DNA of 64,000 nt from the NCBI GenBank assembly GCA_030272585.1, contig BSYQ01000005.1:3875501-3939500 (forward strand), given 5' to 3'. Below, in pieces: positions 3,807-63,805 of this stretch (positions within the stretch are counted from its first letter, which is position 1; each line of letters starts with the position of its first letter). Origin of the DNA: Bryopsis sp. KO-2023 (Eukaryota; Chlorophyta; Ulvophyceae; Bryopsidales; Bryopsidaceae). Under the pieces are notes generated by a model. It was given only the letters and a program-made list of their open reading frames with translations. It was not told the origin of the DNA and did no database searches. Both the position numbers and the translations under genes were made by a program.

Positions 3807-5984
3807 GTGACCATATCTGTGGCAGTTCCAGCACTGAATCCCACTCGGCGCTGTATTATGTCCTTTCCAACCATTTCTTCCCTGTTGAGCCCCAGCTCCT
3901 CCTCTCATCGGCCCATTGGTTCGTCCATTGCCTCGATTGCCTCCATATCCTCTTCCACCATAGCCTCGACCTCCTCCTCTTCCTTGATGACCTCCGTTTC
4001 CCAAAGGCACTTGATTACTTCCAGTTCCATTTCTGTGCATCTTGCCTTGGTACTGCTGCGTATCTGCCGGCTGGGCAATATCGGCTACCAAACTGGATAA
4101 GGTGGACACCATATTCTTGATCTCGTTGGAAGTAGTGGCATACTCTCGTGAGTTTTTCTCCAAGGCGCGTAAGCGATTGTCATTGACCTTCTGATGGTCT
4201 CGTACTTCCCGGCGAAGGTTGTCGATCTGCTCATTCACTCTTTGGTCCATCACTGTCACTTCTTCCAAAGGAGGTAGTTCTGCCAGCTCCTTCCCCTCTT
4301 CGCTTTCGTCAAACACATTCACAGCTCCGGCCTTCTTCTTGGGTCGTTGCATCTGTCTCTCCACCACTCTTGCTCGTTCCACTGCTTGTTCAAACGTATC
4401 CCCCGTGTGTGAAAGTAGCACCATTGCTGAATCATCGCGGATACCATGCTTGAAAATACTGAGCAGCATATCGTCTCCAACCACAGGTCCGCCAATCACC
4501 ATCATCTGCTGCCGCAGTGCTTCCAGATCCTGGGCAAACTCATTGGCCGTTTCGCTTGCTGTTTGGCGGCGCTCCACCAACTTCTTCATCAACGTGGAGG
4601 GTTCAGATCCAAATCGAGCCAACAGTGCTGCACGCATGTTCTGCCATGTCCGCGCAGGATTTGGGTTTCCTCCTCCAACAACTCCTGCTGGCAGTATTGG
4701 TGGATGACTCGTCTCCCAGTTGTCCACCCATGATCGAGCCTTGTCAGCGGTGTAAAGGATTAAACGCTCGATCCTCTGATCTTCGTGTGCCGGCACATCG
4801 TTAGGCATTTGCCATCCTGCTCCAATTGCCAGTACTTCGTATTGCTTGATCCATGTGGAAACATCTTCCTTCTCCTTGCCATGAAAGGTAGGGAAATGGA
4901 CATTCACCAATCTATTTGGCGGTGCTGCTGCTGCGCCAGGAACAGCCATATTCCACGGTGGTGGTGGTGGAGGTGGTGGTCCTGGATCTGTACTGTCCGA
5001 ACTGGTCGATGTAGTAGGCTTTTCACTGCTGCTACTACTTCCTCCTCCGTCGTCTGGATCTGGATGCGGTGGTGTAAAGTCTCTTCCCGAAGGTCCAGCT
5101 TCTTCTTGATCTCTCTCTTCAAAAGGTTCTTCTGGTTCCGAGGGGATGGAAACACTGCCTTCTCTGTCTCCTCCTTCTGTAGGCTCAGATGTGTCTCTTA
5201 CTTCTTCTCTCTCTTCGTCAGTCAATCCCAGAAATAATGAACCTCCGCCGCCACTTTCACCTGTTCCCGATCTGGCACTCTGATATTCAGACGAGGGTAA
5301 CTCCGACTCTGTTTCCTCAGTACTGCCTCCGTTCGTCTCCTTGGACCTCGCTTCCTCGGACAACGGCTCTTCCTCGGACTCTGTCTCTCGCAAGCTCACT
5401 CGTCTTCCTCCAAACCAGTGTACAGGATATGGCCTTGGCTCCTCGTCTGGCACACTGTCTCCTTCAGTTGTGCTTGATACACCTCCTTCTGACTCTTGTG
5501 GCTGCTGCACTGCTTGTAACTCCGCTTCTGTAGCACTGTCAGTCGGCACTCCCGACCCTTGTGCTGTAGGTTCTGACCCTTGCCCTTGATCTTGTTGAAC
5601 TACCTCGTCCTCAGTGAAAGCAACTTGGCCGTGCTGCCGTCTGGTGTATGCTCGAGCGTGGCTTGACCTTTGAGCGCTGGCAAAGAGTTCAGAATAGCTG
5701 CCACTGAAAGTCTTTGCAGCAGCGTCTGCAAGTACTCTTTCACTCACGCCAGTAGTGACAAAGGCGCAGAACTGGTTCCAATAAGCAAGACCTCTTTGGC
5801 GGTGTATCCACACAGCTAACCACGATGAGTCTAGCACTTCAGGTAAAGGTCCAACAAACGTTCGTTCTACCACTCTCTCTGGAGGTACAGTGTATCCTGT
5901 GCTCTCTGTTTCACGCCACACTGCCAAAGTCCTCCAATACTCTTGCACTACAGCGAACTGTTCGTCGTCAGTGTAGCCCTCCAG
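3807..5984 (-). pseudogene. gag of B2, interrupted after the zinc knuckle starts
   Basis: Near-identical to the B1 Gag. On the minus strand the frame is open from just after the primer-binding site. A Met-free N-terminal extension runs to the first ATG at 4949 (start of the Gag core, Met-Ala-Val-Pro). The conserved CTG in AGTCTGG context lies at 5984-5982 and is the start used here; 4949 is the conservative alternative. The core has the retrotransposon Gag motif with EDVSTWIKQYE and SWVDNWE, then a Gly/Arg-rich region. The A0 insertion cuts the frame inside the CCHC knuckle (CWNCHRYGH). Protease and pol are not in view. Differences from B1 are scattered single substitutions. Confidence 0.85.
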
Positions 5985-6939: not shown

Positions 6940-6951
6940 TGGTTTCGGAGC
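6940..6951 (+). promoter_or_regulatory. Primer-binding site of E
   Basis: TGGTTTCGGAGC directly after ATTTGT, identical to the sites of A, B, C and D. Confidence 0.75.
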
Positions 6952-7159
6952 TTAGGTCGAAAATCTGGCTGAGGGGTCGACCCCACCGTGGTTATCCAAG
7001 GAGCTACTCGAGTATCTCGAATCAAATCGAGATCTAAGGAAGAGATATAGAGAGCTCTTCAAGGAGGAAGGACTACAACCGCCGGAAGAACTGCATTTGG
7101 ACACAACTGAAAGCTCAAGCTCGGAGGATTCATCGGGTAGCAGTAGTTCCGCTGGAATC

Positions 7160-11299: not shown

Positions 11300-11891
11300 T
11301 GTAACCCCAAACCACGTCGCCTCCACCGATTTCGTCACACTGGCCAGGGCCAGAGTGCTGTCGAGTAGAGGGGAGGTAGTTAGGGCAGTCTTACAAGGTT
11401 TGAGTGGGGTTTACAGTCACCCAGGGCAGTCCTGCCATAGCAGTCCCACCACAGCCTAGAGGTAGCAGTTCAGCTACAAGGTTGACTAGGTTGGACAGTC
11501 CTAGGGATTGGTACTGAGGGAGTGAGTGGACTTTGGGTGGTTAGAAAGATCAGTTAGGCTTGATGGGTTAGGTTGTCTTAATCAGTAGGTGGGATCCTAG
11601 GCGATCAATGGGACAAGGGTGAGTCAGGCTGCAGCCTATTTAAATGGCTGATCTTAGGGTATTGTACTTCTTGGTGTGGATCTTCTTGTGTTTTGTTCGA
11701 GTTTGGACCTTTGGACTGTTGTAAGAAAGCTTTTGAGAAGAGACCTGAGTGAAAAGTGCCTTGCAAGGCCGTGTGATCAAGTTAAAGAGGGGCTGTCCCC
11801 ACTTCTGCCGTTCCAGTTCTGCAAAAACGCCTCCACAACCGTTAAGTCCAGCTGCAGGGGTGACCCCAGCGGTCAAGGCGACGCAATTTGT
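11300..11891 (+). repeat. 5' LTR of C (592 bp)
   Basis: Starts TGTAACCCCAAACCACG and ends ATTTGT, related along its length to the 531-bp LTR of D. TATTTAAA lies near 11637. The U5 has GCAGGGGTGACCCC as in D. Confidence 0.9.
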
Positions 11892-11903
11892 TGGTTTCGG
11901 AGC
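11892..11903 (+). promoter_or_regulatory. Primer-binding site of C
   Basis: TGGTTTCGGAGC directly after ATTTGT. Confidence 0.75.
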
Positions 11904-13865
11904 CCAGGCGCGCACACTTTTTAGCTGTGCTGCAGCAGACGTGCACTACGGCTCTGGCAGTCGTTATAAGTGGGCAGTCTGGACGAGCAAGACCTGAGAG
12001 TGAGAAAAGAAGCGGAGTAAGCTCTTGCAAGAGTGAAGAGAAGGACCCACAGGGGTGGATACGTTTCAAAAGGGTACAAGGTCGAGCTTGGGTCGCTCAC
12101 AAGGGTGAAGAGAAGGCGAAAAAGCTTTGTGGGTTTCGGGATCTTGTGGGATCTTAACCTAAGGTTAGGTCAGAACTGCTGTTGGGTCGCTTTTGTCTTG
12201 TTTGGGCTGCAGCAAGGTCGAGAACAAATACAAGAAAGAGTGACGAACTGCATAAGGTGGAAAAAGAAGCAAGGGCAGTACTTATCCGAGGTTTGGAGGA
12301 GAACAGAGGGTAAAAGAGAAGGATCACGACCAGAAGGGAGACTTGCCACTCAGATCTGTGGCGGCGCTGAAGGAAAAAGAAGATCTTGACGGAAAAAGTG
12401 AACGAGGAAGAAGAACCAAACGAGGAAGAAGGCCTTGGCGGTGCAGAAGGAGTGAACGTTGAGGTTTCTGAGGCACAAGGAAGTGTTGGTGCTTTTTCTG
12501 AGGCTGGTCTTGTTGACGACGAAGGGGTGTTGAAGGAAGACTTTCTTGGCGGCTGGGACAACGAGGAAGTGAACGAGGTTGACGAGAAAGAGGTTGTGAT
12601 GGTCGAGAGTGTTCCTGAAGAACGTGAAGCAAGACAAGAAGACAGAGCTGCTGGAGACGAGGTTACGAGGGCAGAGGTAGACGACGAAGTGGTTGCTGTC
12701 GTTAAAGAAGAAGAAGAGCAAGCAAGTGTTGACCCCACTGGAAGGGAGGTACAAGAAGGAAACCTCGTTGGCGTTACTGACCAAGGAGAAGCCGAGGTTG
12801 TCCAAGAGGAGGAAGAAGTGCTTGCGGAAGAAGTAAAAGAAGAAGACGAAGCAAGACGAGTGACCAAAGAAGAGGAGGAAGCCTTTGTTGAGCCAGAAGT
12901 TGTGGTTAAGGAAGAAGTCAAACAAGAAGAGGAAGAAGAGAGCAGTGTTGCTGCAGGGAACGGAGGAAATGGAGGCGCTACCAACGAGCCCTCGAGTTCC
13001 AGTTCCGACGAAGACAAACCTGAAGGGGAAAGAGACAAGAGGGAGACATCCTCTAGTTTCGAGGAAGAGCCTGTGCCCCCAGTACATCCACCACTGAACC
13101 CATTTGCCTTTGCTGCCAGTCTCCCCCAGATTCCTCCAATTGTGCCACCTGGTCCAGTTGTTCCACCCGTTCCACCAAGACCTCCTGTTCCACCACCAGT
13201 TTGTCCACCGACTCCAGGCAGTGGCGGCGCCATGATACATCCAGCAGAAGGACTTCCTAATCGGTTGACTAACAGTCATTTACCTGCATTTACGGGTGCA
13301 GAGGCAGAAGATGTGGCCACCTGGTTACGTTCCTATGGGATCCTCGCTGAAGGCTCTGGCTGGAACGTACCCCCAGCAGTGCAGCCACACGAAGACGAGA
13401 GGATAGAGAGACTGGTCCGCTATACAACCAGGGAGGCTCGGTCATGGGTTGACAATTGGATATCCAGACATCCAGCCCTTGTGGAAGGAGTGCCAAACCC
13501 ATTGAGGACGTGGCAGAAGTTGCAAACGGACATGCTGGCCTGGTTTGGAGTTGCCCCAGCAACACCAGTAGCCCATACCTTGGAGCAAAGCCGGAAGGGT
13601 GATGAAACAGTGGACGAGTATACATCTGTGCCATCCCAAGGGCAACAGCAAGTGGAAGCGAACAGAGTACCAGGCAATCCAGCCGTGGCAGATGGGTCCT
13701 TACTTCGATCGAACAAGGATGGAGCTCAGGGGGAGTTGACACGTTGACACCCATACTTCATGCACCCACGGAGGATACTTTGGAAGGAGTCAGTGCCAGA
13801 GCCGGACAAGTTGATAAGAGACAAGTGGACCCCAGTTCCACCCAGAAGGAAGTGACGGTCCCAGC
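11904..13865 (+). pseudogene. gag of C, N-terminal extension and start of core, decayed
   Basis: The leader to about 12380 corresponds to the start of the D extension (it keeps GGCAGTCTGGACGA) but has stops in frame. From about 12386 an acidic Glu/Val-rich frame runs to 13747 with a single copy of the unit (LVGVTDQ...EAEVV) that is repeated 8 to 12 times in D and D2. A Pro-rich segment precedes the core ATG at 13232 (Met-Ile-His-Pro). The core has EDVATWLRSY and SWVDNWISRHP. A frameshift ends the frame at 13747; gag homology continues in another frame to 13865, where B1 is inserted. Only two ATGs occur between 11892 and 13000. Confidence 0.82.
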
Positions 13866-14451
13866 TGTAACCTTCATTTTGAGGGTCAAGAGCAGGCGAA
13901 GGGTCTTGTGGAAACAGCCCATGCCAGAAACAGCTCTAGGAAAAGGATAGAAAAGGCAGAACTGTAAGAGAAAGTGGGTAGGAAACACTGGGACAGTTTA
14001 GCCGAAACAGACGCTGGCAGGACTGCTGGTTTAGGAGAAACTGCCACTTGAGCAGTACTGCGGTAGTCAGTTATAACGGTTACGAAGGGGAATGGATTGA
14101 TCTAGTGACAAAGGGCTTAGTCAAGGTTCCAAAGGGATCAGAGAAGACTAGGGTAGTGTTGGAATAGGTTGATCCATAGGGGTTGAGGTGACTGATGCCT
14201 AGGAAGAACCTAGGATATAAAGGGCAGTGCTGTGGGTTAGGGTTAGGTTCCCATTCTGGTTAAGATTGTTCTTGCTGGAAGCACAGCCGATTGGCTTTGT
14301 AAAAGACTTCGTTTGGACGTGTTTTCCTTGTGTTTCGACTCCGTTTCCACCACTGCAACAGTTACAACAGCCACTACAGCCGCCAGACTGCAGACAGTCA
14401 CAGTGCTGTAGGACTGTGAGGGCCCATCGCCTGCGCGGCGCACCCATTTGT
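13866..14451 (+). repeat. 5' LTR of B1 (586 bp)
   Basis: Starts TGTAACCTTC and ends ATTTGT. TATAAA is at 14216-14221. It appears identical to the 3' LTR at 41871-42456, which implies recent insertion. No ATG occurs between the TATA box and the LTR end. Confidence 0.95.
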
Positions 14452-14452
14452 T

Positions 14453-14464
14453 TGGTTTCGGAGC
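14453..14464 (+). promoter_or_regulatory. Primer-binding site of B1
   Basis: TGGTTTCGGAGC, one base after ATTTGT. Confidence 0.75.
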
Positions 14465-15550
14465 TAGCACTGAGACTTCTACGTTCTCAGTTCCTGACCT
14501 GGTGGAGAAGGCAGTCTGGAGGGCTACACTGAAGACGAACAGTTCGCTGTAGTGCAAGAGTATTGGAGGACTTTGGCAGTGTGGCGTGAAACAGAGAGCA
14601 CAGGATACACTGTACCTCCAGAGAGAGTGGTAGAACGAACGTTTGTTGGACCTTTACCTGAAGTGCTAGACTCATCGTGGTTAGCTGTGTGGATACACCG
14701 CCAAAGAGGTCTTGCTTATTGGAACCAGTTCTGCGCCTTTGTCACTACTGGCGTGAGTGAAAGAGTACTTGCAGACGCCGCTGCAAAGACTTTCAGTGGC
14801 AGTTATTCTGAACTCTTTGCCAGCGCTCAAAGGTCAAGCCACGCTCGGGCATACACCAGACGGCAGCACGGCCAAGTTGCTTTCACTGAGGACGAGGTAG
14901 TTCAAAGAGATCAAGGGCAAGGGTCAGAACCTACAGCACAAGGGTCAGGAGTGCCGACTGACAGTGCTACAGAAGCGGAGTTACAAGCAGTGCAGCAGCC
15001 ACAAGAGTCAGAAGGAGGTGTATCAAGCACAACTGAAGGAGACAGTGTGCCAGACGAGGAGCCAAGGCCATATCCTGTACACTGGTTTGGAGGAAGACAA
15101 GTGAGCTTGCGAGAAACAGAGTCCGAGGAAGAACCGTTGTCCGAGGAAGCGAGATCCAAGGAAACGAACGGAGGCAGTACCGAAGAAACAGAGTCGGAGT
15201 TACCCTCGTCTGAATATCAGAGTGCCAGATCGGGAACTGGTGAGAGTGGCGGCGGAGGTTCATTATTTCTGGGAGTGACTGACGAAGAGAGAGAAGAAGT
15301 AAGAGACACATCTGAGCCTACAGAAGGAGGAGACAGAGAAGGCAGTGTTTCCATCCCCTCGGAACCAGAAGAACCTTTTGAAGAGAGAGATCAAGAAGAA
15401 GCTGGACCTTCGGGAAGAGACTTTACACCACCGCATCCAGACCCAGACGACGGAGGAGGAAGTAGTAGCAGCAGTGAAAAGTCTACTACATCGACCAGTT
15501 CGGACAGTACAGATCCAGGACCACCACCTCCACCACCACCACCGTGGAAT
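14465..15550 (+). promoter_or_regulatory. ATG-free leader / Met-free Gag extension of B1
   Basis: I read every base and found no ATG in any of the three sense frames between the primer-binding site and the ATG at 15551. One frame is open from just after a TGA near 14500. It holds a Trp-rich first domain, then acidic Ser/Glu-rich and poly-Pro stretches. Confidence 0.88.
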
Positions 15551-17809
15551 ATGGCTGTTCCTGGCGCAGCAGCAGCACCGCCAAATAGATTGGTGAATGT
15601 CCATTTCCCTACCTTTCACGGCAAGGAGAAGGAAGATGTTTCCACATGGATCAAGCAATACGAAGTACTGGCAATTGGAGCAGGTTGGCAAATGCCTAAT
15701 GATGTGCCGGCACACGAAGACCAGAGGATCGAGCGTTTAATCCTTTACACTGCTGACAAAGCTCGTTCATGGGTGGACAACTGGGAAACGAGTCATCCAC
15801 CAATACTGCCACCAGGAGTTGTTGGAGGAGGAAACCCAAATCCTGCGCGGACATGGCAGAACATGCGTGCAGCACTGTTGGCTCGATTTGGATCTGAACC
15901 CTCCACGTTGATGAAGAAGCTGGTGGAGCGCCGCCAAACAGCAAGCGAAACGGCCAATGAGTTTGCCCAGGATCTGGAAGCACTGCGGCAGCAGATGATG
16001 GTGATTGGAGGACCTGTGGTTGGAGACGATATGCTGCTCAGTATTTTCAAGCATGGTATCCGCGATGATTTGGCAATGGTGCTACTTTCACACACAGGGG
16101 ATACGTTTGAACAAGCAGTTGAACGAGCAAGAGTGGTGGAGAGACAGATGCAGAGACCCAAGAAGAAGGCCGGAGCTGTGAATGTGTTTGACGAAAGCGA
16201 AGGGGGGAAGGAGTCGGCAGAACTACCTCCTTTGGAAGAAGTGACAGTGATGGACCAAAGAGTGAATGAGCAGATCGACAACCTTCGCCGGGAAGTACGA
16301 GACCATCAGAAGGTCAATGACAATCGCTTACGAGCCTTGGAGAAAAACTCACGAGAGTATGCCACTACTTCCAACGAGATCAAGAATATGGTGTCCACCT
16401 TATCCAGTTTGGTAGCCGATATTGCCCAGCCGGCAGATACGCAGCAGTACCAAGGCAAGATGCACAGAAATGGGACTGGAAGTAATCAAGTGCCTTTGGG
16501 AAACGGAGGTCATCAAGGAAGAGGAGGAGGTCGAGGCTATGGTGGAAGAGGATATGGAGGCAATCGAGGCAATGGACGAGCAAACGGGCCGATGAGAGGT
16601 GGAGCTGGGGCTCAGCAGGGAAGAAATGGTTGGAAAGGACATAATACAGCGCCGAGTGGGATTCAGTGCTGGAACTGCCACAGATATGGTCACTACGCTG
16701 CCCATTGTCCCGACAACATCACCTATTTCGAAGACTACGATACCACCTATGTCATGGACTTCAACTATCTCGAGACGGACGAACTTTCCCCTGAGCAGAT
16801 ACACTACTCAGCGATGGAAGTAGATGAGAGTGTTGGGGCGAATGAAGAAGCAGAAGAAGTCGAGATGGGGGAACCAAGTGCCCCGGGAACCTCAGCTGGA
16901 GGAAGTCCAATGGATACTGAACCTGTTCTTACGGAACCAGTCGTGGAAGAGCCAGGAGAAGATGTGCCAGAGCCAGGGAAAGAAGAGGAAGTGCCTGAAG
17001 TGAAGGAACCAGAGAAGGAACCAGAAACAGTGCCAGAACCAGTTCCGCGATTTCAAGCCACGTTACCTATGCCGACATTTCCACGTGCCAGAGCTATGCC
17101 AGATCCAGTGCCACCAAAGAAGAAGAGAGCGAAGACTACTCGGAAAAAGACAAAAGAACTTCCACCTGGAGTTATGTTCTCAGCGGCTGAGGCCAAAGCT
17201 TTTCTGGAGAAACAGTTGGTGGAAGTACCCTTGGCGAAGCTGTGCAAGTGTCACCCGGAGATTGTGGAAGCTTGGTTGAACTCTCTCCAGAAACCGAAGG
17301 GAGTGAATGCAATGGAGGAAGCTGGAGGAAATGCTCCTAAGTTTGCCGTTACGACCGTTACTGCGAAGATTCTCGAGCACAAAGTCCCCAAGGCGATACT
17401 GGACTCCGGCGCCAGTGCTTGTGTTATCTCGGAAGAACTACTACGAAAGGTGGATTTGGTTCATCTGATGGAAGCGCCGAAAGGAAGATATCGAGACTGC
17501 AATGGAGGAATCCGCACTGCTGTGGGATATGTGCCAGGACTGCCGCTGTCTGTGGGTCGCTGTCGGCTAGTCGTTCCATGTCACGTCGTTTCGACCGGTC
17601 ACTATCCATTGATCATTGGGACCCCTTGGATGAGTGCTGCTCAAGCTGAGATACACTATGGCACAAGCCGCCTCGTTACCACCATAAGCGGACAAAAGCT
17701 AGGGTCAGTGCCGATCGAGTTCTCCTATCGCGCAGTGCAGCCAGCCAACGTTTCTGACGACGCCATGGACCCCAAGAATACTTCCACCCCTTCGATTGGC
17801 AGGGATGAG
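14516..17809 (+). CDS. Gag-protease polyprotein of B1, first part (cut by A1)
   Basis: The candidate non-AUG start is CTG 14516 in AGTCTGG; the first ATG in any frame is 15551 (AATATGG, Met-Ala-Val-Pro), residue ~346 of the extended form. The extension starts with a Trp-rich domain (FVGPLPEV, SWLAVWIHRQRG) related to that of D. The Gag core follows (NRLVNVHFPTFHG, EDVSTWIKQYE, SWVDNWE), then a coiled-coil-like stretch, a Gly/Arg-rich run and a CCHC knuckle (CWNCHRYGHYAAHCP, ~residue 718). An aspartic protease lies at ~residue 960 (AILDSGASACVIS) with IIGTPWM. A1 inserted at 17809; the frame resumes at 27906 after the ATGAG duplication and has no other break. Confidence 0.88.
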
Positions 17810-50772: not shown

Positions 50773-53700
50773 TCCGAGGAGTCGTAGCTCACCACCCTTG
50801 GTGGCTCACTCCTCCCCTCCCCGCCAGCTGCGGCTGCTGTGGAGGTCCCCCCTCCAGTCTCGCCACCCTCCACTGGCCTCCACCTCTGGGCCTCCCTGCG
50901 GAAGTGCCCCAACATCTCCTCCGACTCCTCCCTCTGTGCGCTCGTCACAGCGTCGCACCTTCGGAAATACTCCCTTGTGATAGCATCCCTTTTTCTCGGT
51001 TCTCCCTCGCATCTCAACCTTTCGTCGTGGATCTTTTTGAACTCCCTCTTTGTCCCTCCGTGGTGCCTCCCCCTGGTGTCCAGTATTTCCGCCTCCTGGA
51101 GATACAGATGTGTGGCCGCCGCCTCACTCATCCCCTTTTCCCGCCGAATGGTGCAGCACTCCTGCAGCACCGCCTTCTGGCGCTTGGTGATCCACAGAGG
51201 AGGGGGTTGAGGAACGTAGAGGTAGGGCTGGATGAACCCATCTGGTCGGCGTTCCCCTGGTGGCGTTTGGCTCGTCATTGAATCCTGCTGTGGCTGCTTT
51301 CCAGTGGGGGCTGCTGGCGGTTCTGGGGCGGCGCTCGTTTCTTCGATCGATCGGAGGGTTTGGTAAACTGCGACGACTGCAGCACTCTCAGGCGTCGTTG
51401 TGTGAAGGAACTCGATGGGTACGTGACCTACTCGCCGTCCTGCCACACACGGAGTGAGCCGCTTGAAACCAAAGTGGATCTCTGTACCGGTATCCACCAA
51501 CCACGGGGTCCCAATGATCAGGGATAGATGTTCGTTCTCCACTACATGGCACGGTACGATCTGTTTGCATTGTCCAAGGCCGATGGGCAGGGCAGGGATG
51601 TACCCCAGAGCTTGCCTAGTCTCGCCATTGCAATCCCTGTACCTCCCCTTCGGTGCCTCCATCAGGTGGGTCAACCCTGTCCGTGCTAGGAGTTGGGCCG
51701 ATATCACACAAGCACTCGCCCCCGTATCAATGATGGCCCCTGGTACCTTGGTCTCCATGATCTTGGCTGTGGCGGTAGTGACTGCATATGGGCTGGGCTT
51801 GCCCACTCCCTCCACAGTAGTGATTGCAGGTACTTTAGCCATGGGCACCCTCAGTGCCTTCAACCATGCATCGATCAACTCCGGGTGGTGCTGGCACAGA
51901 CTCGCCACTGGAACCTCCGTCATCAGACCCTCCACAAACTTTTTGGCTTCTGCCGCTGTAAACATTCTCTTCTCTTTTGGCTCCCCCACCGTCTTTTTCC
52001 CCATTTTCTTTTTCTTGGTCATGGTATTCCGTGGGGACGGTGGCCGCATGGGTGGTGGGAACATCGGTGGTAACATAACTGGTCTCGATCCTTGTGGCTC
52101 ATCTTGTGGCTTCGGCACACCTTCTGGTTCAGGCACAGACTTTGTCTTCTCCTCCTGCTGTGGGGGTTCTGGTTCCTCCTTTGGTTCCTCCATCACAACT
52201 TCCTCCCCAGCATCTGCTCGAGGTTCCGAAGATATTGGGCTCGTGTCCATGGGGGTTCCTCCACTGCCTCCCTGGTCCCCGTCCAAGCCTCCGTGGTCAA
52301 TATCCATTTCAGAGTACCAGATTGGCGCCAGAACCTCCTCGGGTCCTTCCGTGGTGGTTGCCCCAGGGTCCGTTTGCTCAAAGTCCATCACCAGGTGGTC
52401 CCCCATTTCCGCCTGGAAGAAGTTTAAATGTTCAGGACACTGGCTGGCATAATGGCCAAGGCGCGAGCAGTGCCAACATCTGACTTTGTTCACATCATAA
52501 CGCCCTCCTCCCCAGCCTCTTCCTCCATTGCCATTGTTCCGGGTCCCCCGTCCTCTGCCTCCTCCATTTCCCCAGCCATTGCCTCTGTAGGCCCCTTGCC
52601 CTCTGCCTCCATTGATTGGCACTTGGTTTGCTCCGGTACCCCCAGTGTTTCCATAGTTCCCTCCTCCTGGCTCTGGCACATTAGGCTGTCTCACATCCGC
52701 CACCATTCCGGATAGAGTGGAGATCATACTTTTGAGTTCGCCAAACTGCTGCCCGGAGGTTCTCACATGCTGCTCCACTCCTCTGAGCCGCGAGTCCGTA
52801 GTGGTTTGGTGTTCGCGCACCTCCTTCCTCAAATTCTCGATTTGTTCGTTCACCCGCTGATCCATAATATTTACTTCCGCCAGGACTGGCTCCATCACTG
52901 CTTGGTCCTGCAGTTCCTCCAGTGTGTTGATCGTTGTCTTCCGCTTTGGCCCCGGCCGCACTTGTCTTTCTTCGATCTGTCTGGCTCTTGCCACGGCTTC
53001 ATCCAGGGTATCTCCTGTAAAACCCAACAGGATGGGGGCAAGATCCTCCCGCACTCCATTCTTAAACAATTGCAGTAGAAGTTCGTCGGCCACGGCTGGA
53101 CTGCCTGGGGCTCGACTCGCATTGAGTTGTTGCTGCATCTGGGAGAGTGCCGAAGCGTATTCCCCCACAGTTTCGTCATTCTTTTGTTTTCGTTCCAAGA
53201 TACGGGCCACCAACGTCGCTGGCGCCACTCCAAACCTTGCCAACATGCCCATTTGTAACTCCTGCCATGTCCTTTCTGGGTTCGGTGCCCCTCCCACATG
53301 TGTAGGGTGCCTGGCCGTCCAATTGTCCACCCATGACCGCGCTTTCCCCGTCGTATACAGGACGAGTCTCTCAATTCTCTGATCCTCATGGTCCGGCACC
53401 GCTGGTGGTACACTCCACCCTGAGCCTGTGGCGAGAATCTCGTATGACCGTATCCAGGTGGCCACATCTTCCTTCTCTGCCCCAGTGAAGGCTGTTAACT
53501 GACTGTTGATCAGCCTGTTTGGAGGTCCTCTGGGGTGGGCCATGGCACCGACTCCGCCTGGTGGGTGTGGTGGAGGAGGTGGTGGAGGAGGTGGTGGAGG
53601 GACTGGTGGTGGACCAGGTGGTACAGGTGGAACGGGTGGAGGAACAGGTGGGACTGGTGGTTGAAGATAGGGAAGTCCAACCTCAAAGGCAAATGGGTTC

Positions 53701-55533
53701 AGCGGGGGCTGGTCCGGTAACGGTTCTTCTTCAGCACTGGAGGATGATCCACTCTCGCCTTCTTCTTCGTCAAAGGCAAAAAATGGGTTCAGCGGGGGCT
53801 GATCTGGGGGTAACGATCCTTCCCCAGAACTGGAGGTCGACTCTCTTTCGCCTTCTCCTTCGTGGGACTCTTCCTCGTCTGAAGTGGTACTCGATGGCTC
53901 AGAAGGGTCCTCTGGAAACCCTGGCTCGATACGATAGGCTCTTCCTTCCGCCCAACTAGCGGCGCTGTGGTACTCAGTTCCTCCGCCTGATCCCACTCCG
54001 TTGGTCTCTCCGCTACTCCCTGGAACGGCCGCACTTCCTCCTTCCTCGTCTGGCTCAACACTGATTTCCTCTTCAACAACCTCAGCCTCCTCGTGGTCAG
54101 TGGTTCCAACAAGATCTCCTTCAGAGGCTCCTTCTTCAACAGGTTCGACTCCGACTTCTTCCACAACAACCTCGGCTTCCTCTTGGTCAGTGGTTCCAAC
54201 AAGATCTCCGTCAGAGGTTCCTTCTTCAACAGGTTCGACTCCGACTTCTTCTACAACAACCTCGGCTTCCTCTTGGTCAGTGGTTCCAACAAGATCTCCT
54301 TCAGAGGCTCCTTCTTCAACAGGTTCGACTCCGACTTCTTCCACAACAACCTCGGCTTCCTCTTGGTCAGTGGTTCCAACAAGATCTCCTTCAGAGGCTC
54401 CTTCTTCAACAGGTTCGACTCCGACTTCTTCCACAACAACCTCGGCTTCCTCTTGGTCAGTGGTTCCAACAAGATCTCCTTCAGAGGCTTCTTCTTCAAC
54501 AGGTTCGACTCCGACTTCTTCTACAACAACCTCGGCTTCCTCTTGGTCAGTGGTTCCAACAAGATCTCCTTCAGAGGCTCCTTCTTCAACAGGTTCGACT
54601 CCGACTTCTTCCACAACAACCTCGGCTTCCTCCTGGTCAGTGGCTCCAACAAGATCTCCTTCAGAGGCTCCTTCTTCAACAGGTTCGACTCCGACTTCCT
54701 CCACAACAACCTCGGCTTCCTCTTGGTCAGTGGTTCCAACAAGATCTCCTTCAGGGGCTCCTTCTTCACTAGGTTCGACTCCGACTTCTTCTACAACAAC
54801 CTCGGCTTCCCAATCACGGGGAGAGTCTTCGTGGCTCTCTCTTTCCTCGTCCTCAGACTCAACCCTGACCCACTCTCTCGCGCTGCCTTGCTCAGTCTCG
54901 TCGTGCACTGTCTCCGCGCTGCCACCAAGGCTCTCTTCACTGATCTCGCTGTCCGGTTTTTCCTCAGGTTCTCCAACTCCTCCAACTTCTCCTGCGCCGC
55001 CACTCAGATCTGGGGAATTTCTGCTTGCCGGGCGTGATCCCTCGGCGTCTCCCTCCGTTCTTTGGTGGTACTCGTCTTCAAGACCCTTGAGGAACTTCGT
55101 TTTCCACTGCTGCTCGGCTTTTTGCAGTTCCTCCGATACTCGTTCTTCCACTCGCTCTGTACCCAGCCGTGCTGCCTCGTGCTCTCCCCAGAACAGCCGT
55201 GAGACCTCGTGATCACGCGCTCTGTCTCGGGCTAGCTTGAAAAGACCAGATAAGTCGTTACTGAACAGCTCACGAGTTTGTGAGTCCCCCTCTTCCTTGG
55301 TTAACAGGCCTGTGAGTACACTCTGATATATCCACCAAAAACTCTTCGCGCGGAAACGATGGCACCACACAGCAACCCACTCGTCCTCAAATATGGCAGG
55401 TATGGGTCCGATAAACTCAGGGTGTATTGTCAGGGGTGGTCTATAAGCTACTTCCTCTGCAACCTGTTCCCGTTCCTGCCAATGGTATAGGCGCAGGCGA
55501 AAGCCAGCCGCCTTTAACTCCTGATCGTCCAGA
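50766..55533 (-). CDS. Gag-protease polyprotein of D
   Basis: CTG 55533 in AGTCTGG is the candidate start of the extended form; the first ATG in any frame is 53543 (GCCATGG, Met-Ala-His-Pro). The ~660-residue extension has no Met: a Trp-rich domain (FIGPIPAIFEDEWVAVW), an acidic region with eight 30-residue repeats, then Ser/Glu and poly-Pro stretches. The core follows (NRLINSQLTAFTGAEKEDV, SWVDNWTARHP), then a coiled-coil-like part, Gly/Arg-rich run, CCHC (CWHCSRLGHYASQCP), aspartic protease (AIIDTGASACVIS, IIGTPWL) and a charged helical C-terminus. It ends at UAA within a U-run. The frame is intact over more than 4.7 kb. Confidence 0.88.
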
Positions 55534-55618: not shown

Positions 55619-56149
55619 ACAAATAGGGTAACCTTGACCGCTGGGGTCACCCCTGCAGCCGTACTTAACGGTTGTGATGGCGTTTCTGCAGAACGGGAAC
55701 GGCGGAAGTGGGGACAGCCCCTCTTGAACTTGATCACACGGCCTTTGCAAGGCACCTTACTCAGGACTCTTCACACAAGCTTTCTTACAACAAACAATAA
55801 AGGGTCCAAACCCGAATAAACACAAAAGCCTCACCCAGAATGTCCAATAACCTAAGATCAGCCATTAAATAGGCTGCCGCCTGACTCACCCTAGTCCCAC
55901 TGATCACCTAGGATCCCACCTACTGATGGGGACTACCTAACCTATCAAGCCTAGCTGATCTTCCTAACCTCCCTCAATCCCTTCCCTTAGTCTCTACCCC
56001 TAGGACCGTCCAACCTAGTCATTTCCGCAGCTGGACTGCTACTTCCAGACTGTGGCTGGACTGTCCTAACTACCCCCCCTCTACCCGATAGCACTCTGGC
56101 CTTGGCCAGTGTGACGAAATCGGTGGAGGCGACGTGGTTTGGGGTTACA
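55619..56149 (-). repeat. 5' LTR of D (531 bp)
   Basis: Minus strand: TGTAACCCC...ATTTGT, TATTTAA at 55871-55865. No ATG downstream of the TATA box on the sense strand. Confidence 0.94.
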
Positions 56150-56155
56150 CGCATG

Positions 56156-57227
56156 GTTGAAGGCATTACGGGTGCCTATGGCGAAAGTCCCAGCAGTTAC
56201 CACCATGGCAGAAGTGGACAAGACAAGCTCATATGCAGTTACTACAGCCACAGCCAAAGTGATGGAAACCAAAGTGCCAGGAGCGATCATTGACACCGGA
56301 GCGAGTGCCTGTGTGATATCCAAAAAACTCCTAACACAAACGGGATTAACACATCTAATGGAGGCACCAAGAGGGCGTTACCGGGACTGCAATGGACAGA
56401 CTCGGCAGGCAGTAGGGTACATCCCCGCTCTACCTATTGCCCTTGGACAATGCAAACAAATGGTACCGTGCCATATAGTGGAGAACAAGCATTTGTCCCT
56501 AATCATTGGGACTCCATGGTTGGCTAAAACCGGCACCGAGATTGACTACGGGCTCAAAAGGCTCACTCCATACGTGGCGGGACAGCGCATGGGTGGCGTG
56601 CCGATCGAGTTCATCCACTCTGTAACGCCTGCAACTGCTGCAGTCGTTTCTATCTACCAGACCCTCCGCCACATCGAAGAACCCAGTCCTGCACCAGCCC
56701 AACCACCCTCTTCTACCGGGGAACTTTTGCAGCCGAACTCAAGGACGACTCATGATGGTCTGAACCAGCCCAACGCCGCCAGTCGACATCCACCGACCCT
56801 CCGGCTTACATACTACCAAGCAAGGGTGCTGCAAGAGTGCTACACCAGGCGTCGGGAGAACGGGATGAGTGAGGCAGCAGCCTCACACCTCCACCAGCAA
56901 GAGATGGAGTTACTTGATGCAAGAAGAGGGCACCATTTGAAAATACAAAAAGAGAACGAAGGGAGTTTGGAGGAAACACTGCAAAGAGAAGGAAAACAGG
57001 GGAGAAGAAATGGTGTAACAGAGGAATACATGCGGAGGCGGGAGGCACTGAAGCAAGAGGAAAAGGAGGAGCTCAAAAAGCTATTGGAACACTTCCGGGA
57101 AACTGCACAATCATGAAGGCCAACAGGAGGGGCTGCAACAGGAGTGCCTCCAGCAGCGGCCGCAACCGGAGAGAAAGGAGGGAGTGAGCCACCTCGGGTG
57201 GTGAGCTACACAACGTCGGATTTTTGA
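56156..57227 (+). pseudogene. gag-protease of C, C-terminal part
   Basis: Resumes C gag after D. It encodes the aspartic protease (AIIDTGASACVISKKLL, IIGTPWLAKTG) and the charged helical C-terminus homologous to D. A TGA at 57114-57116 breaks the frame about 37 codons before the natural end. The natural end, GAT TTT TGA at 57219-57227, is homologous to the D slip site. Confidence 0.87.
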
Positions 57228-58082: not shown

Positions 58083-58613
58083 TGTAACCCCAAACCACGT
58101 CGCCTCCACCGTTTTCGTCACACTGGCCAAGGCCAGAGTGCTATCGGGTAGAGGAGGGGTAGTTAGGACAGTCCAGCCACAGTCTGGAAGTAGCAGTCCA
58201 GCTGCGGAAATGACGAGGTTGGACGGTCCTAGGGATAGAGGCTTAGGGAAGGGATTGAGGGAGGTTAGGAAGATCAGCTAGGTTTGATAGGTTAGGTAGT
58301 CCCCATCAGTAGGTGGGATCCTAGGTGATCAGTGGGACTAGGGTGAGTCAGGCGGCAGCCTATTTAATGGCTGATCTTAGGTTATTGGACATTCTGGGTG
58401 GGGCTTTTGTGTTTATTCGGGTTTGGACCCTTTATTGATTGTTGTAAGAAAGCTTGTGTGAAGAGTCCTGAGTAAGGTGCCTTGCTAAGGCCGTGTGATC
58501 AAGTACAAGAGGGGCTGTCCCCACTTCCGCCGTTCCCGTTCTGCAGAAACGCCATCACAACCGTTAAGTACGGCTGCAGGGGTGACCCCAGCGGTCAAGG
58601 GCACCCTATTTGT
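58083..58613 (+). repeat. 5' LTR of D2 (531 bp)
   Basis: TGTAACCCC...ATTTGT, TATTTAA at 58361-58367. No ATG from about 58370 to the LTR end. Confidence 0.94.
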
Positions 58614-58625
58614 TGGTTTCGGAGC
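58614..58625 (+). promoter_or_regulatory. Primer-binding site of D2
   Basis: TGGTTTCGGAGC directly after ATTTGT. Confidence 0.75.
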
Positions 58626-61027
58626 CAGGTTGCGCACACTTTTGAGCTGTGCTGCAGCAGGCGTGCTACACATTCTGGGAAAACGTGCAGGAAGGCAGTC
58701 TGGACGATCAGGAGTTAAAGGCGGCTGGCTTTCGCCTGCGCCTATACCATTGGCAGGAACGGGAACAGGTTGCAGAGGAAGTAGCTTATAGACCACCCCT
58801 GACAATACACCCTGAGTTTATCGGACCCATACCTGCCATATTTGAGGACGAGTGGGTTGCTGTGTGGTGCCATCGTTTCCGCGCGAAGAGTTTTTGGTGG
58901 ATATATCAGAGTGTACTCACAGGCCTGTTAACCAAGGAAGAGGGGGACTCACAAACTCGTGAGCTGTTCAGTAACGACTTATCTGGTCTTTTCAAGCTAG
59001 CCCGAGACAGAGCGCGTGATCACGAGGTCTCACGGCTGTTCTGGGGAGAGCACGAGGCAGCACGGCTGGGTACAGAGCGAGTGGAAGAACGAGTATCGGA
59101 GGAACTGCAAAAAGCCGAGCAGCAGTGGAAAACGAAGTTCCTCAAGGGTCTTGAAGACGAGTACCACCAAAGAACGGAGGGAGACGCCGAGGGATCACGC
59201 CCGGCAAGCAGAAATTCCCCAGATCTGAGTGGCGGCGCAGGAGAAGTTGGAGGAGTTGGAGAACCTGAGGAAAAACCGGACAGCGAGATCAGTGAAGAGA
59301 GCCTTGGTGGCAGCGCGGAGACAGTGCACGACGAGACTGAGCAAAGCAGCGCGAGAGAGCAGCCCAGGGTTGAGTCGGAGGACGAGGGAAGAGAGAGCCA
59401 CGAAGACTTTCCCCGTGATTGGGAAGCCGAGGTTGTTGTAGAAGAAGTCGAAGTCGAACCTGTTGAAGAAGGAGCCTCCGAAGGAGATCTTGTTGGAGCC
59501 ACTGACCAAGAGGAAGCCGAGGTTGTTGTGGAAGAAGTCGAAGTCGAACCTGTCGAAGAAGGAGCCTCTGAGGGAGATCTTGTTGGAGCCACTGACCAAG
59601 AGGAAGCCGAGGTTGTTGTGGAAGAAGTCGAAGTCGAACCTGTTGAAGAAGGAGCCTCCGAAGGAGATCTTGTTGGAGCCACTGACCAAGAGGAAGCCGA
59701 GGTTGTTGTGGAAGAAGTCGAAGTCGAACCTGTTGAAGAAGGAGCCTCCGAAGGAGATCTTGTTGGAGCCACTGACCAAGAGGAAGCCGAGGTTGTTGTG
59801 GAAGAAGTCGAAGTCGAACCTGTTGAAGAAGGAGCCTCCGAAGGAGATCTTGTTGGAGCCACTGACCAAGAGGAAGCCGGGGTTGTTGTGGAAGAAGTCG
59901 AAGTCGAACCTGTTGAAGAAGGAGCCTCCGAAGGAGATCTTGTTGGAGCCACTGACCAAGAGGAAGCCGAGGTTGTTGTGGAAGAAGTCGAAGTCGAACC
60001 TGTTGAAGAAGGAGCCTCCGAAGGAGGTCTTGTTGGAGCCACTGACCAAGAGGAAGCCGAGGTTGTTGTGGAAGAAGTCGAAGTCGAACCTGTTGAAGAA
60101 GGAGCCTCCGAAGGAGATCTTGTTGGAGCCACTGACCAAGAGGAAGCCGAGGTTGTTGTGGAAGAAGTCGGAGTCGAACCTGTTGGAGAAGGAGCCTCTG
60201 AAGGAGGTCTTGTTGGAGCCACTGACCAAGAGGAAGCCGAGGTTGTTGTGGAAGAAGTCGAAGTCGAACCTGTTGAAGAAGGAGCCTCCGAAGGAGATCT
60301 TGTTGGAGCCACTGACCAAGAGGAAGCCGAGGTTGTTGTGGAAGAAGTCGGAGTCGAACCTGTTGGAGAAGGAGCCTCTGAAGGAGATCTTGTTGGAGCC
60401 ACTGACCAAGAGGAAGCCGAGGTTGTTGTGGAAGAAGTCGGAGTCGAACCTGTTGAAGAAGGAGCCTCTGAAGGAGATCTTGTTGGAACCACTGACCACG
60501 AGGAAGCCGGTGTTGAACCAGTTGAGGAAGGAGGAAGTGCGGCCGTTCCAGGGAGTAGCGGAGAGACCAACGGAGCGGGATCAGGCGGAGGAACTGAGTA
60601 CCACAGCGCCGCTAGTTGGGCGGAAGGAAGAGCCTATCGTATCGAGCCAGGGTTTCCAGAGGACCCTTCTGAGCCATCGAGTACCACTTCCGACGAGGAA
60701 GAGTCCCACGAAGGAGAAGGCGAAAGAGAGTCGACCTCCAGTTCTGGGGAAGGATCGTTACCCCCAGATCAGCCCCCGCTGAACCCATTTTTTGCCTTTG
60801 ACGAAGAAGAAGGCGAGAGTGGATCATCCTCCAGTGCTGAAGAAGAACCGTTACCGGACCAGCCCCCGCTGAACCCATTTGCCTTTGAGGTTGGACTTCC
60901 CTATCTCCAACCACCAGTCCCACCTGTTCCTCCACCCGTTCCACCGGTACCACCTGGTCCACCACCAGTCCCTCCACCACCTCCTCCACCACCTCCTCCA
61001 CCACACCCACCAGGCGGAGTCGGTGCC
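58626..61027 (+). promoter_or_regulatory. ATG-free leader / Met-free Gag extension of D2
   Basis: No ATG in any sense frame over 2,402 bases, read line by line, ending at GCCATGG (ATG 61028-61030). The opposite strand is not depleted: CAT occurs about nine times on the sense strand. One frame is open throughout. Confidence 0.9.
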
Positions 61028-63805
61028 ATGGCCCACCCCAGAGGACCTCCAAACAGGCTGATCAACAGTCAGTTAACCGCCTTCACTGGGGCAGAGAAGG
61101 AAGATGTGGCCACCTGGATACGGTCATACGAGATTCTCGCCACAGGCTCAGGGTGGAGTGTACCACCAGCGGTGCCGGACCATGAGGATCAGAGAATTGA
61201 GAGACTCGTCCTGTATACGACGGGGAAAGCGCGATCATGGGTGGACAATTGGACGGCCAGACACCCTACACATGTGGGAGGGCTGCCGAACCCAGAAAGG
61301 ACATGGCAGGAGTTACAAATGGGCATGTTGGCAAGGTTTGGAGTGGCGCCAGCGACGTTGGTGGCCCGTATCTTGGAACGGAAACAAAAGAATGACGAAA
61401 CTGTGGGAGAATACGCTTCGGCACTCTCCCAGATGCAGCAACAACTCAATGCGAGTCGAGCCCCAGGCAGTCCCGCCGTGGCCGACGAACTTCTACTGCA
61501 ATTGTTTAAGAACGGAGTGCGGGAGGATCTTGCCCCCATCCTGCTGGGTTTTACAGGAGATACCCTGGATGAAGCAGTGGCAAGAGCCAGACAGATCGAA
61601 GAGAGACAAGTGCGGCCGGGGCCAAAGCGAAAGACAACGATCAACACACTGGAGGAACTGCAGGACCAAGCAGTGATGGAGCCAGTCCTGGCGGAAGTAA
61701 ATATTATGGATCAGCGGGTGAACGAACAAATCGAGAATTTGAGGAAGGAGGTGCGCGAACACCAAACCACCACGGACTCGCGACTCAGAGGAGTGGAGCA
61801 GCATGTGAGAACCTCTGGGCAGCAGTTTGGCGAACTCAAAAGTATGATCTCCACTCTATCAGGAATGGTGGCGGATGTGAGACAGCCTAATGTGCCAGAG
61901 CCAGGAGGAGGGAACTATGGAAACACTGGGGGTACCGGAGCAAACCAAGTGCCAATCAATGGAGGCAGAGGGCAAGGGGCCTACAGAGGCAATGGCTGGG
62001 GAAATGGAGGAGGCAGAGGACGGGGAACTCGGAACAATGGCAATGGAGGAAGAGGCTGGGGAGGAGGGCGTTATGATGTGAACAAAGTCAGATGTTGGCA
62101 CTGCTCGCGCCTTGGCCATTATGCCAGCCAGTGTCCTGAACATTTAAACTTCTTCCAGGCGGAAATGGGGGACCACCTGGTGATGGACTTTGAGCAAACG
62201 GACCCTGGGGCAACCACCACAGAAGGACCCGAGGAGGTTCTGGCACCAATCTGGTACTCTGAAATGGATATTGACCACGGGGGCTTGGACAGGGACCAGG
62301 GAGGCAGTGGAGGAACCCCCATGGACACGAGCCCAATACCTTCGGAACCTCGAGCAGATGCTGGGGAGGAAGTTGTGATGGAGGAACCAAAGGAGGAACC
62401 AGAACCCCCACAGCAGGAGGAGAAGACAAAGTCTGTGCCTGAACCAGAAGGTGTGCCGAAGCCACAAGATGAGCCACAAGGATCGAGACCAGTTATGTTA
62501 CCACCGATGTTCCCACCACCCATGCGGCCACCGTCCCCACGGAATACCATGACCAAGAAAAAGAAAATGGGGAAAAAGACGGCGGGAGAGCCAAAGGAGA
62601 AGAAAATGTTTACCGCGACAGAAGCCAAAAAGTTTGTGGAGGGCCTGATGACGGAGGTTCCAGTGGCGAGTCTGTGCCAGCACCACCCAGAGTTGATCGA
62701 TGCATGGTTGAAGGCACTGAGGGTGCCCATGGCTAAAGTACCTGCAATCACTACTGTGGAGGGAGTGGGCAAGCCCAGCCCATATGCAGTCACTACCGCC
62801 ACAGCTAAGATCATGGAGACCAAGGTACCAGGGGCCATCATTGATACGGGGGCGAGTGCTTGTGTGATATCGGCCCAACTCCTAGCACGGACAGGGTTGA
62901 CCCACCTGATGGAGGCACCGAAGGGGAGGTACAGGGATTGCAATGGCGAGACTAGGCAAGCTCTGGGGTACATCCCTGCCCTGCCCATCGCCCTTGGACA
63001 ATGCAAACAGATCGTACCGTGCCATGTAGTGGAGAACGAACATCTATCCCTGATCATTGGGACCCCGTGGTTGGTGGATACCGGTACAGAGATCCACTTT
63101 GGTTTCAAGCGGCTCACTCCGTGTGTGGCAGGACGGCGAGTAGGTCACGTACCCATCGAGTTCCTTCACACAACGACGCCTGAGAGTGCTGCAGTCGTCG
63201 CAGTTTACCAAACCCTCCGATCGATCGAAGAAACGAGCGCCGCCCCAGAACCGCCAGCAGCCCCCACTGGAAAGCAGCCACAGCAGGATTCAATGACGAG
63301 CCAAACGCCACCAGGGGAACGCCGACCAGATGGGTTTATCCAGCCCTACCTCTACGTTCCTCAACCCCCTCCTCTGTGGGTCACCAAGCGCCAGAAGGCA
63401 GTGCTGCAGGAGTGCTGCGCTATTCGGCGGGGAAAGGGGATGAGTGAGGCGGCGGCCACACATCTGTATCACCAAGAGGCAGAAATACTGGACACCAGGG
63501 GGAGGCACCACGGAGGGACAAAGAGGGAGTTCAAAAAGATCCACGACGAAAGGTTGAGATGCGAGGGAGAACCGAGAAAAAGGGATGCTATCACAAGGGA
63601 GTATTTCCGAAGGTGCGACGCTGTGACGAGCGCACAGAGGGAGGAGTCGGAGGAGATGTTGGGGCACTTCCGCAGGGAGGCCCAGAGGTGGAGGCCAGTG
63701 GAGGGTGGCGAGACTGGAGGGGGGACCTCCACAGCAGCCGCAGCTGGCGGGGAGGGGAGGAGTGAGCCACCAAGGGTGGTGAGCTACGACTCCTCGGATT
63801 TTTAA
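58700..63805 (+). CDS. Gag-protease polyprotein of D2
   Basis: CTG 58700 in AGTCTGG is the candidate start of the extended form; ATG 61028 is the first ATG and starts the Gag core (Met-Ala-His-Pro, residue ~777). Domains: Trp-rich N-terminal domain (FIGPIPAIFEDEWVAVW), acidic region with twelve 30-residue repeats, Ser/Glu-rich and poly-Pro stretch, Gag core (FTGAEKEDVATWIRSY), coiled-coil-like part, Gly/Arg-rich run, CCHC (CWHCSRLGHYASQCP, ~1132), aspartic protease (AIIDTGASACVIS, ~1380; IIGTPWL) and charged helical C-terminus. It ends GAT TTT TAA. The frame is fully intact. Which start is used cannot be decided from sequence. Confidence 0.88.
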   Translation: MDDQELKAAGFRLRLYHWQEREQVAEEVAYRPPLTIHPEFIGPIPAIFEDEWVAVWCHRFRAKSFWWIYQSVLTGLLTKEEGDSQTRELFSNDLSGLFKLARDRARDHEVSRLFWGEHEAARLGTERVEERVSEELQKAEQQWKTKFLKGLEDEYHQRTEGDAEGSRPASRNSPDLSGGAGEVGGVGEPEEKPDSEISEESLGGSAETVHDETEQSSAREQPRVESEDEGRESHEDFPRDWEAEVVVEEVEVEPVEEGASEGDLVGATDQEEAEVVVEEVEVEPVEEGASEGDLVGATDQEEAEVVVEEVEVEPVEEGASEGDLVGATDQEEAEVVVEEVEVEPVEEGASEGDLVGATDQEEAEVVVEEVEVEPVEEGASEGDLVGATDQEEAGVVVEEVEVEPVEEGASEGDLVGATDQEEAEVVVEEVEVEPVEEGASEGGLVGATDQEEAEVVVEEVEVEPVEEGASEGDLVGATDQEEAEVVVEEVGVEPVGEGASEGGLVGATDQEEAEVVVEEVEVEPVEEGASEGDLVGATDQEEAEVVVEEVGVEPVGEGASEGDLVGATDQEEAEVVVEEVGVEPVEEGASEGDLVGTTDHEEAGVEPVEEGGSAAVPGSSGETNGAGSGGGTEYHSAASWAEGRAYRIEPGFPEDPSEPSSTTSDEEESHEGEGERESTSSSGEGSLPPDQPPLNPFFAFDEEEGESGSSSSAEEEPLPDQPPLNPFAFEVGLPYLQPPVPPVPPPVPPVPPGPPPVPPPPPPPPPPPHPPGGVGAMAHPRGPPNRLINSQLTAFTGAEKEDVATWIRSYEILATGSGWSVPPAVPDHEDQRIERLVLYTTGKARSWVDNWTARHPTHVGGLPNPERTWQELQMGMLARFGVAPATLVARILERKQKNDETVGEYASALSQMQQQLNASRAPGSPAVADELLLQLFKNGVREDLAPILLGFTGDTLDEAVARARQIEERQVRPGPKRKTTINTLEELQDQAVMEPVLAEVNIMDQRVNEQIENLRKEVREHQTTTDSRLRGVEQHVRTSGQQFGELKSMISTLSGMVADVRQPNVPEPGGGNYGNTGGTGANQVPINGGRGQGAYRGNGWGNGGGRGRGTRNNGNGGRGWGGGRYDVNKVRCWHCSRLGHYASQCPEHLNFFQAEMGDHLVMDFEQTDPGATTTEGPEEVLAPIWYSEMDIDHGGLDRDQGGSGGTPMDTSPIPSEPRADAGEEVVMEEPKEEPEPPQQEEKTKSVPEPEGVPKPQDEPQGSRPVMLPPMFPPPMRPPSPRNTMTKKKKMGKKTAGEPKEKKMFTATEAKKFVEGLMTEVPVASLCQHHPELIDAWLKALRVPMAKVPAITTVEGVGKPSPYAVTTATAKIMETKVPGAIIDTGASACVISAQLLARTGLTHLMEAPKGRYRDCNGETRQALGYIPALPIALGQCKQIVPCHVVENEHLSLIIGTPWLVDTGTEIHFGFKRLTPCVAGRRVGHVPIEFLHTTTPESAAVVAVYQTLRSIEETSAAPEPPAAPTGKQPQQDSMTSQTPPGERRPDGFIQPYLYVPQPPPLWVTKRQKAVLQECCAIRRGKGMSEAAATHLYHQEAEILDTRGRHHGGTKREFKKIHDERLRCEGEPRKRDAITREYFRRCDAVTSAQREESEEMLGHFRREAQRWRPVEGGETGGGTSTAAAAGGEGRSEPPRVVSYDSSDF
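59431..60510 (+). repeat. 90-bp tandem repeat in D2 gag, 12 copies
   Basis: Twelve 30-residue acidic units (EVEVEPVEEGASEGDLVG plus ATDQEEAEVVVE). No unit contains an ATG in any sense frame. The last unit is degenerate (TTDHEEAG). Confidence 0.96.

Follow-up and report, generated by a model that had tools for sequence, protein, structure and literature searches.

What keeps one strand of a retrotransposon free of ATG for about 2.6 kb, right up to the start codon of Gag? The question is raised by D2, an element of the green alga Bryopsis sp. KO-2023 that lies in a 64-kb window of contig BSYQ01000005.1 (64,000 nt; window coordinates are used throughout). No ATG occurs on its sense strand between 58367 and 61028 (+), which is the largest ATG gap anywhere in the window. 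A first-pass annotation had reported this gap as 58370-61030, which our counts bear out, and had ascribed it to selection against upstream starts in a leader that ribosomes scan. We find support for the selection, but the stretch also codes and is not a mere leader. It reads as an N-terminal coding extension of Gag, and we consider it fairly probable that this Ty3-like long terminal repeat (LTR) retrotransposon makes a minor, N-extended Gag from a CUG codon and reaches the Gag AUG by leaky scanning.

D2 is classed as Ty3-like by its Gag and protease, which lie in one frame; the element exceeds the window, and its LTR and primer-binding site (PBS) are placed by position. A motif scan finds a TATA-like box, TATTTA, in the 5' LTR (58361..58366, +), and we take the mRNA to start 30 nt past the TATA box (TATA+30), at about 58391 (+). 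The putative PBS motif, TGGTTTCGGAGCC, lies at 58614..58626 (+), inside a 17-nt motif found 101 times genome-wide. From 58646 to 61027 (+), 794 codons contain neither a stop nor a Met and are in phase with Gag and protease, and the frame ends at 63805. The probable CUG start of the extended Gag, AGT CTG G at 58700..58702 (+), is supported by context and frame conserved between families and by upstream stops in relatives; counted from there, the extension comprises 776 codons (58700..61027, +), has no Met, and is ATG-free in every frame. It consists of an N-terminal domain of ~110 aa, an acidic region with 30-aa repeats encoded by a 12.1 x 90-bp tandem array (59422..60509, +), and a Pro-rich to poly-Pro linker (approx. 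60909..61012, +, by translation) that abuts the Gag AUG. The Gag-protease frame runs from this first AUG (GCCATGG) over 61028..63805 (+). Pfam finds Retrotrans_gag and gag-asp_proteas above cut-off in the D2 frame, with zf-CCHC at 19.6 bits, just below its cut-off of 20.8. Element D, which with D2 belongs to the family we call F1, has the same layout with fewer repeats (extension 53544..55532, -; CTG 55532, Gag ATG 53543; array 54074-54810). As had been noted earlier, it is likewise ATG-free, with a gap of 2322 nt on the - strand (55865 to 53543).

How surprising the gap is depends on what a control preserves. Shuffling bases alone over 58390-61027 predicts 42.5 ATGs, in agreement with the earlier estimate of about 40, but dinucleotide shuffles predict only 19.1, or 13.2 with the array collapsed. 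The naive expectation is too high because the stretch has few AT dinucleotides (53 across the 2661 nt of 58370-61030) and carries the array. Even so, none of 2000 dinucleotide shuffles was without ATG, whether the array was intact or collapsed, and the gap thus withstands the shuffled-control check. Strand specificity holds as well, on a condition. CAT occurs nine times in 58626-61027, as first counted, but every one of them sits in the flanks. CAT is likewise missing from the 1804 nt of 58871-60675, which makes the array uninformative on strand, and the comparison needs it collapsed. After collapse, CAT is at its dinucleotide expectation (11 observed, 10.8 expected) and ATG is below it (0 against 13.2). 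In the full F1 extension, CGT, AAT, and TAG reach z values as low as that of ATG, which is therefore not the sole low triplet there.

Evidence that the stretch encodes protein comes from relatives of the F1 extension. Comparing the F1 domain with that of L046, a copy with 89% protein identity across the search query, gives 0.206 synonymous (dS) and 0.047 nonsynonymous (dN) changes per site, a dN/dS of 0.23. The extensions of two other, deeply diverged families, F2 and F6, are homologous to it: F1 and F2 share 26% identity over 95 columns (E 1e-10), F1 and F6 share 34.5% (E 1.3e-4; 24.6 bits against a maximum of 17.7 among 40 shuffles), and the F2-F6 match is weaker (E 0.002; 21.2 bits against 15.4). 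A GP[IL]P motif lies 31-45 residues past the CTG in all three. Because of this dN/dS and the homology between families, we read the stretch as a conserved Gag extension. No Pfam family matched the F1 or F2 extension, with none significant for the ~110-aa domain; among solved structures, the best match had an E of 0.44. Protein relatives outside this genome were not found at E <= 0.001, a weak negative given that mostly only the 8000 most word-sharing candidates were scored. C-rich codons encode poly-Pro directly before the Gag AUG in F1 (~60909-61012), F2 (~15517-15547), and F6 (L078, ~1624-1686).

Would a coding sequence of this kind lack ATG anyway? We shuffled codons with the protein held fixed, drawing them at the rates of three Gag-protease cores or, as a variant, from each extension's own usage. 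Out-of-frame ATGs numbered 0 against 8.1 expected in F1 (array collapsed), 0 against 5.6 in F2, and 0 against 7.0 in F6. Pooled, this is 0 against 20.8, and the minimum over 3000 draws was 10; with each extension's own codons it is 0 against 14.2, with a minimum of 7. The earlier argument that coding alone leaves the loss in three frames unexplained is therefore sustained in three families. In-frame Met is absent too, with 0 among 1215 codons of F1, F2, and F6 where the core rate (76/2604) predicts 35.5. The near-cognate codons CTG, GTG, TTG, and ACG are at or above expectation out of frame in the same extensions, and the Gag-protease cores are undepleted in out-of-frame ATG (32, 33, and 31 against 27.6, 27.8, and 26.3 expected). 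For the short extension of F3, the absence of ATG is not significant in this test (P 0.52). The purge thus targets ATG in all frames, across coding sequence, and recurs between families.

The layout of D2 recurs in other Gag families, some of them in the same window. F2 has a Met-free extension of 345 codons at 14516..15550 (+; CTG 14516, Gag ATG 15551) and a second copy, L041, with its extension at 4950..5984 (-; CTG 5984, Gag ATG 4949); the corresponding ATG gaps run from 14195 to 15551 (+) and from 6305 to 4949 (-). F3 is a short form with 65 codons at 6965..7159 (+; CTG 6965, ATG 7160) and a gap from 6786 to 7160 (+). Outside the window, F6 (L078 and L079) has an ATG gap of 1472 nt and, in L078, a Met-free extension of 424 codons, and F5 (L054, L071, and L072) has an extension of 17 codons. 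The 17-nt PBS motif led to further copies: 100 of its 101 genomic sites were listed and 30 cut out, comprising 13 of F1, 13 of F4, 3 of F5, and 1 of F3.

F4 seems to have lost the CUG-started domain. Of its 13 loci (L048-L050, L052, L058, L059, L064-L066, L073, L074, L076, and L077), all but L058 have a stop at codon 13 of the CTG frame, and in all 13 the first ATG is a strong-context AUG (MVESV) 608-620 nt further on. In the F4 copy of the window (12371-13747), the ATG-free run up to this AUG, at 12599, covers 11645..12598 (+). As a control for relaxed selection F4 gives no clear outcome: in the two of its 13 loci that the script could score, out-of-frame ATGs number 3 against 4.8 expected and 1 against 4.4. 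Four further Gag-family leaders were examined between a PBS-like site and the Gag ATG: L083 has zero ATG and L085 one, L082 is too short upstream to score, and L084 is unclear. A Gag family without an extension (MADREHAL...) is ATG-free for 463-469 nt before its Gag ATG in three copies (18381 and 31784, +; 3241, -).

Where would translation of the extension begin? An in-frame CTG in the context (A/G)NNCTGG lies downstream of the PBS in all six families. In F1, F2, and F4 the motif GGCAGTCTGGA follows the PBS, and the CTG lies 64-88 nt from the start of TTGGTTTCGGAG; the F1 copy L037 reads GGCAATCTGGA at this motif. The contexts in the remaining families are AATCTGG (F3), GTTCTGG (F5), and ACGCTGG (F6). 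In L046, F3, and the F4 copies L050, L065, and L073, the open frame between an upstream in-frame stop and the CTG is just 9 nt long, and in F2 it is 18 nt, which forces the frame to begin at or very near the CTG; in F2, F3, and L046 the CTG is the only near-cognate codon available. In the F4 copies L058 and L059 and in F5 and F6, the frame is open for 54-297 nt upstream of it. We consider CUG 58700 the probable start of the Gag extension.

The ATG-free region opens at, or slightly ahead of, the predicted start of the transcript. Relative to the TATA box, the last ATG before it lies at +6 in F1, -21 in F2, +29 in F3, +22 in F6, -18 in both F4 copies, and +29 in F5. From TATA+30 to the first start codon, all seven sequences from the six families are ATG-free (P <= 0.002 for each of F1, F2, F6, and the two F4 copies), and the first start codons have a purine at -3 and G at +4 in all six families. 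ATGs are present on either side. The 500 nt upstream of the TATA box contain 3 in F1, 5 in F2, 3 in F3, 9 and 7 in the F4 copies L065 and L058, and 2 in F5, and ~206 nt contain 4 in F6. The 500 nt past the start codon contain 10 in F1, 14 in F2, 7 in F3, and 13 in F5, with only 1 in each F4 copy, and 191 nt contain 4 in F6.

A count across genomic copies agrees with the picture from D2. We compared 30 distinct F1 sequences, reading each extension to its Gag ATG or to the end of the available sequence; L057, whose extension is cut by an inserted LTR-like sequence, was dropped from the extension counts. The remaining 29 sequences (60.2 kb of extension) hold one extra ATG, in L056; a second, in L015, was counted by script but proves to be its Gag ATG, which falls at the edge of the available sequence. 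The 300 nt preceding the CTG are ATG-free in 30 of 30 sequences. Two copies, L024 and L038, have a stop inside the extension. The number of 90-bp repeats differs between copies, and the distance from CTG to Gag ATG ranges over 1788-2172 nt, with 2328 nt in D2 of the window; it is a multiple of three in all 11 readable copies.

In the model that we favor, the mRNA would start ~30 nt past the TATA box and be unspliced. A minority of scanning ribosomes would initiate at the strong-context CUG 58700, a leaky kind of start, and produce extended Gag, and those that miss it would scan on through the coding extension, for up to ~2.6 kb, to the first AUG at 61028 and produce ordinary Gag. Both forms would then come from one mRNA; that the CUG is used, that scanning is leaky, and that two products arise in some ratio are all part of the proposal. 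Each leaking ribosome would have to cross the extension from end to end and would be diverted by any AUG on the way, whatever its frame; Met codons and out-of-frame ATGs would therefore be purged and near-cognates spared. Selection against upstream AUG along a scanned stretch is supported, because out-of-frame ATG is absent where 20.8 are expected, near-cognates are kept, and the desert begins at the predicted transcript start or slightly ahead of it.

Several observations weigh against this model. In the extension, the 29 recent F1 sequences show no sign of purifying selection (9 synonymous and 30 other changes; 11.7 and 27.3 expected), as would be expected if most copies drift once inserted, and changes that create an ATG are not clearly rarer (1 against 2.0 in the extension, 0 against 2.7 before it); this polymorphism test rests on few changes (78). 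The absence of ATG from TATA+30 to the start codon is not significant alone for F3 (P 0.059) or F5 (P 0.48), and the families L080 and L085 carry ATGs between a PBS-like site and the Gag ATG. F1 also has an out-of-frame CTG in good context 25 nt upstream of the proposed start, and three in-frame near-cognates, each followed by C at +4, precede that start. An RNA stem past the CTG is inconsistent (z of 0.25, -2.65, -0.11, and -0.61 in four families). Finally, according to the sections of PMC5902531 used here, a short upstream open reading frame (ORF) added to ORF II of rice tungro bacilliform virus (RTBV) left ORF III output undiminished, so not every upstream AUG is harmful.

The alternative that survives best, though we judge it unlikely, is splicing: unspliced RNA would encode extended Gag, and a spliced RNA with a short leader would encode ordinary Gag with no long scanning. 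F1 has possible sites for this, which also count against our model, namely GTAAG at 58472 and a pyrimidine-rich tract ending in CAG at 61011, before the Gag ATG. The host is likely to have introns, because its light-harvesting genes match in pieces (107 matches, many partial). These matches mark it as a photosynthetic eukaryote; a phycobilisome linker family was looked for and not found. Out-of-frame ATGs inside an intron need no purge, however, and yet they are absent. Moreover, no 5' site of this kind lies between TATA+30 and the CTG in F6, and all 13 F1 loci chosen by their PBS run from PBS into extension (L057 is then interrupted), with none resembling a copy of spliced RNA.

Improbable, to a further degree, is that only extended Gag is made from a non-AUG start, with AUG 61028 an internal Met codon and the ATG purge due to some other cause. 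The frame is indeed unbroken from the CTG through protease. This reading leaves unexplained why out-of-frame ATG should be lost past the start and why the first AUG has a strong context in all six families, and F4, whose CTG frame is broken in 12 of 13 loci, now has an AUG as its first start. Less probable again is that the stretch is an extremely long non-coding leader in which upstream AUGs are selected against. This would account for a strand-specific purge in three frames, but against it stand a run of 776 codons that is stop-free and in phase with Gag, the homology between families, and the older purifying selection; coding combined with leaky scanning explains the stretch better. A composition or repeat artefact, in which a GA-rich, AT-poor array encoding acidic repeats is inherently poor in ATG, draws on the scarcity of AT dinucleotides and on a 1088-nt array that also lacks CAT and explains part of the raw length, but it is refuted as a full explanation and has next to no probability, because array-collapsed dinucleotide and protein-fixed controls still predict 13.2 and 8.1 ATGs and F2 and F6, whose translations show no such array, are purged in the same way. 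Composition or chance was rejected by dinucleotide shuffles for F1, F2, F6, and F4, and by protein-fixed shuffles also for F1, F2, and F6.

Two further observations concern the placement of these elements. Upstream of D2, 56115-57116 (+) is another Gag-protease-type open frame, and 300 nt at 56151 share 78% identity with D2 at 62702. F1 copies are clustered: with 40 of the 43 listed places used, 27 lie within 60 kb of another, against 2.1 under random placement (maximum 11, n=2000). Six of seven F2 copies are within 100 kb of an F1 copy; a comparison reverse transcriptase group had 2 of 19. By eye, in the list of PBS-motif sites, F4 appears bunched too, although its extension start is broken, so we draw no link between clustering and function.

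If the scanning model is right, selection acts on every AUG across 1.3-2.6 kb of largely coding mRNA, which opens the distance that ribosomes can scan to testing. Copies differ in path length according to their repeat array, so a longer or shorter array could adjust the balance between extended and ordinary Gag. The identity of the extension domain between families is now only ~25-35%, and an AUG purge older than the family split would amount to a long-running natural test of eukaryotic scanning distance. We hold this fuller picture, with two Gag forms made by scanning up to ~2.6 kb of a translated extension, an array that could tune their ratio, and a purge that predates the split, more tentatively than the basic model, as a possibility that we would not yet bet on. 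The findings also suggest that gammaretroviruses are not alone in expressing two forms of Gag by way of a CUG start. Because gene finders that require ATG miss ATG-less coding extensions, annotations of retrotransposons may lack entire Gag domains.

Known systems contain the elements of this model; the comparisons below draw on sections of the cited papers. The closest in layout is glyco-Gag of murine leukemia virus (MLV) and other gammaretroviruses, in which Gag is extended N-terminally, in frame, by initiation within the 5' leader at a strong-context CUG (accCUGg) (PMC5778647, PMC3542737). The MLV extension has 6.7% of the ribosome density of Gag, and gammaretroviruses other than MuLV, which has one AUG in the extension region, generally have none there (PMC5778647). 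An in-frame CTG in strong context, with the frame open to the Gag AUG, is likewise found in F1, F2, F3, F5, F6, and the F4 copy L058. However, the gammaretroviral extension is short and carries an endoplasmic reticulum signal, whereas those of F1, F2, and F6 have 345-776 codons, carry a seemingly unrelated domain, acidic repeats, and poly-Pro, and belong to LTR retrotransposons from a photosynthetic eukaryote. In RTBV, ~10% of ribosomes initiate at the AUU of ORF I and the remainder scan ORFs I and II, ~900 nt with no internal AUG (PMC5902531). F1, F2, and F6 resemble RTBV and the badnaviruses in having a probable weak non-AUG start followed by coding sequence that is AUG-free in all frames up to a downstream AUG, but RTBV uses separate ORFs and a leader shunt, whereas here a single frame is in phase with Gag and the path would reach up to ~2.6 kb. 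PEG10, a mammalian gene derived from Ty3, makes a Gag-like protein from both a CUG and a downstream in-frame AUG (PMC2800197); unlike D2, it is a domesticated cellular gene with a 34-aa extension, and the parts of PMC2800197 used here do not describe a long AUG-free stretch. We found no long AUG-free Gag extension in LTR retrotransposons in the literature searched, subscription journals being mostly outside its scope. The principle is thus known from glyco-Gag and from leaky scanning in RTBV, and what would be new is the longer path, with an extension that matches no Pfam family.

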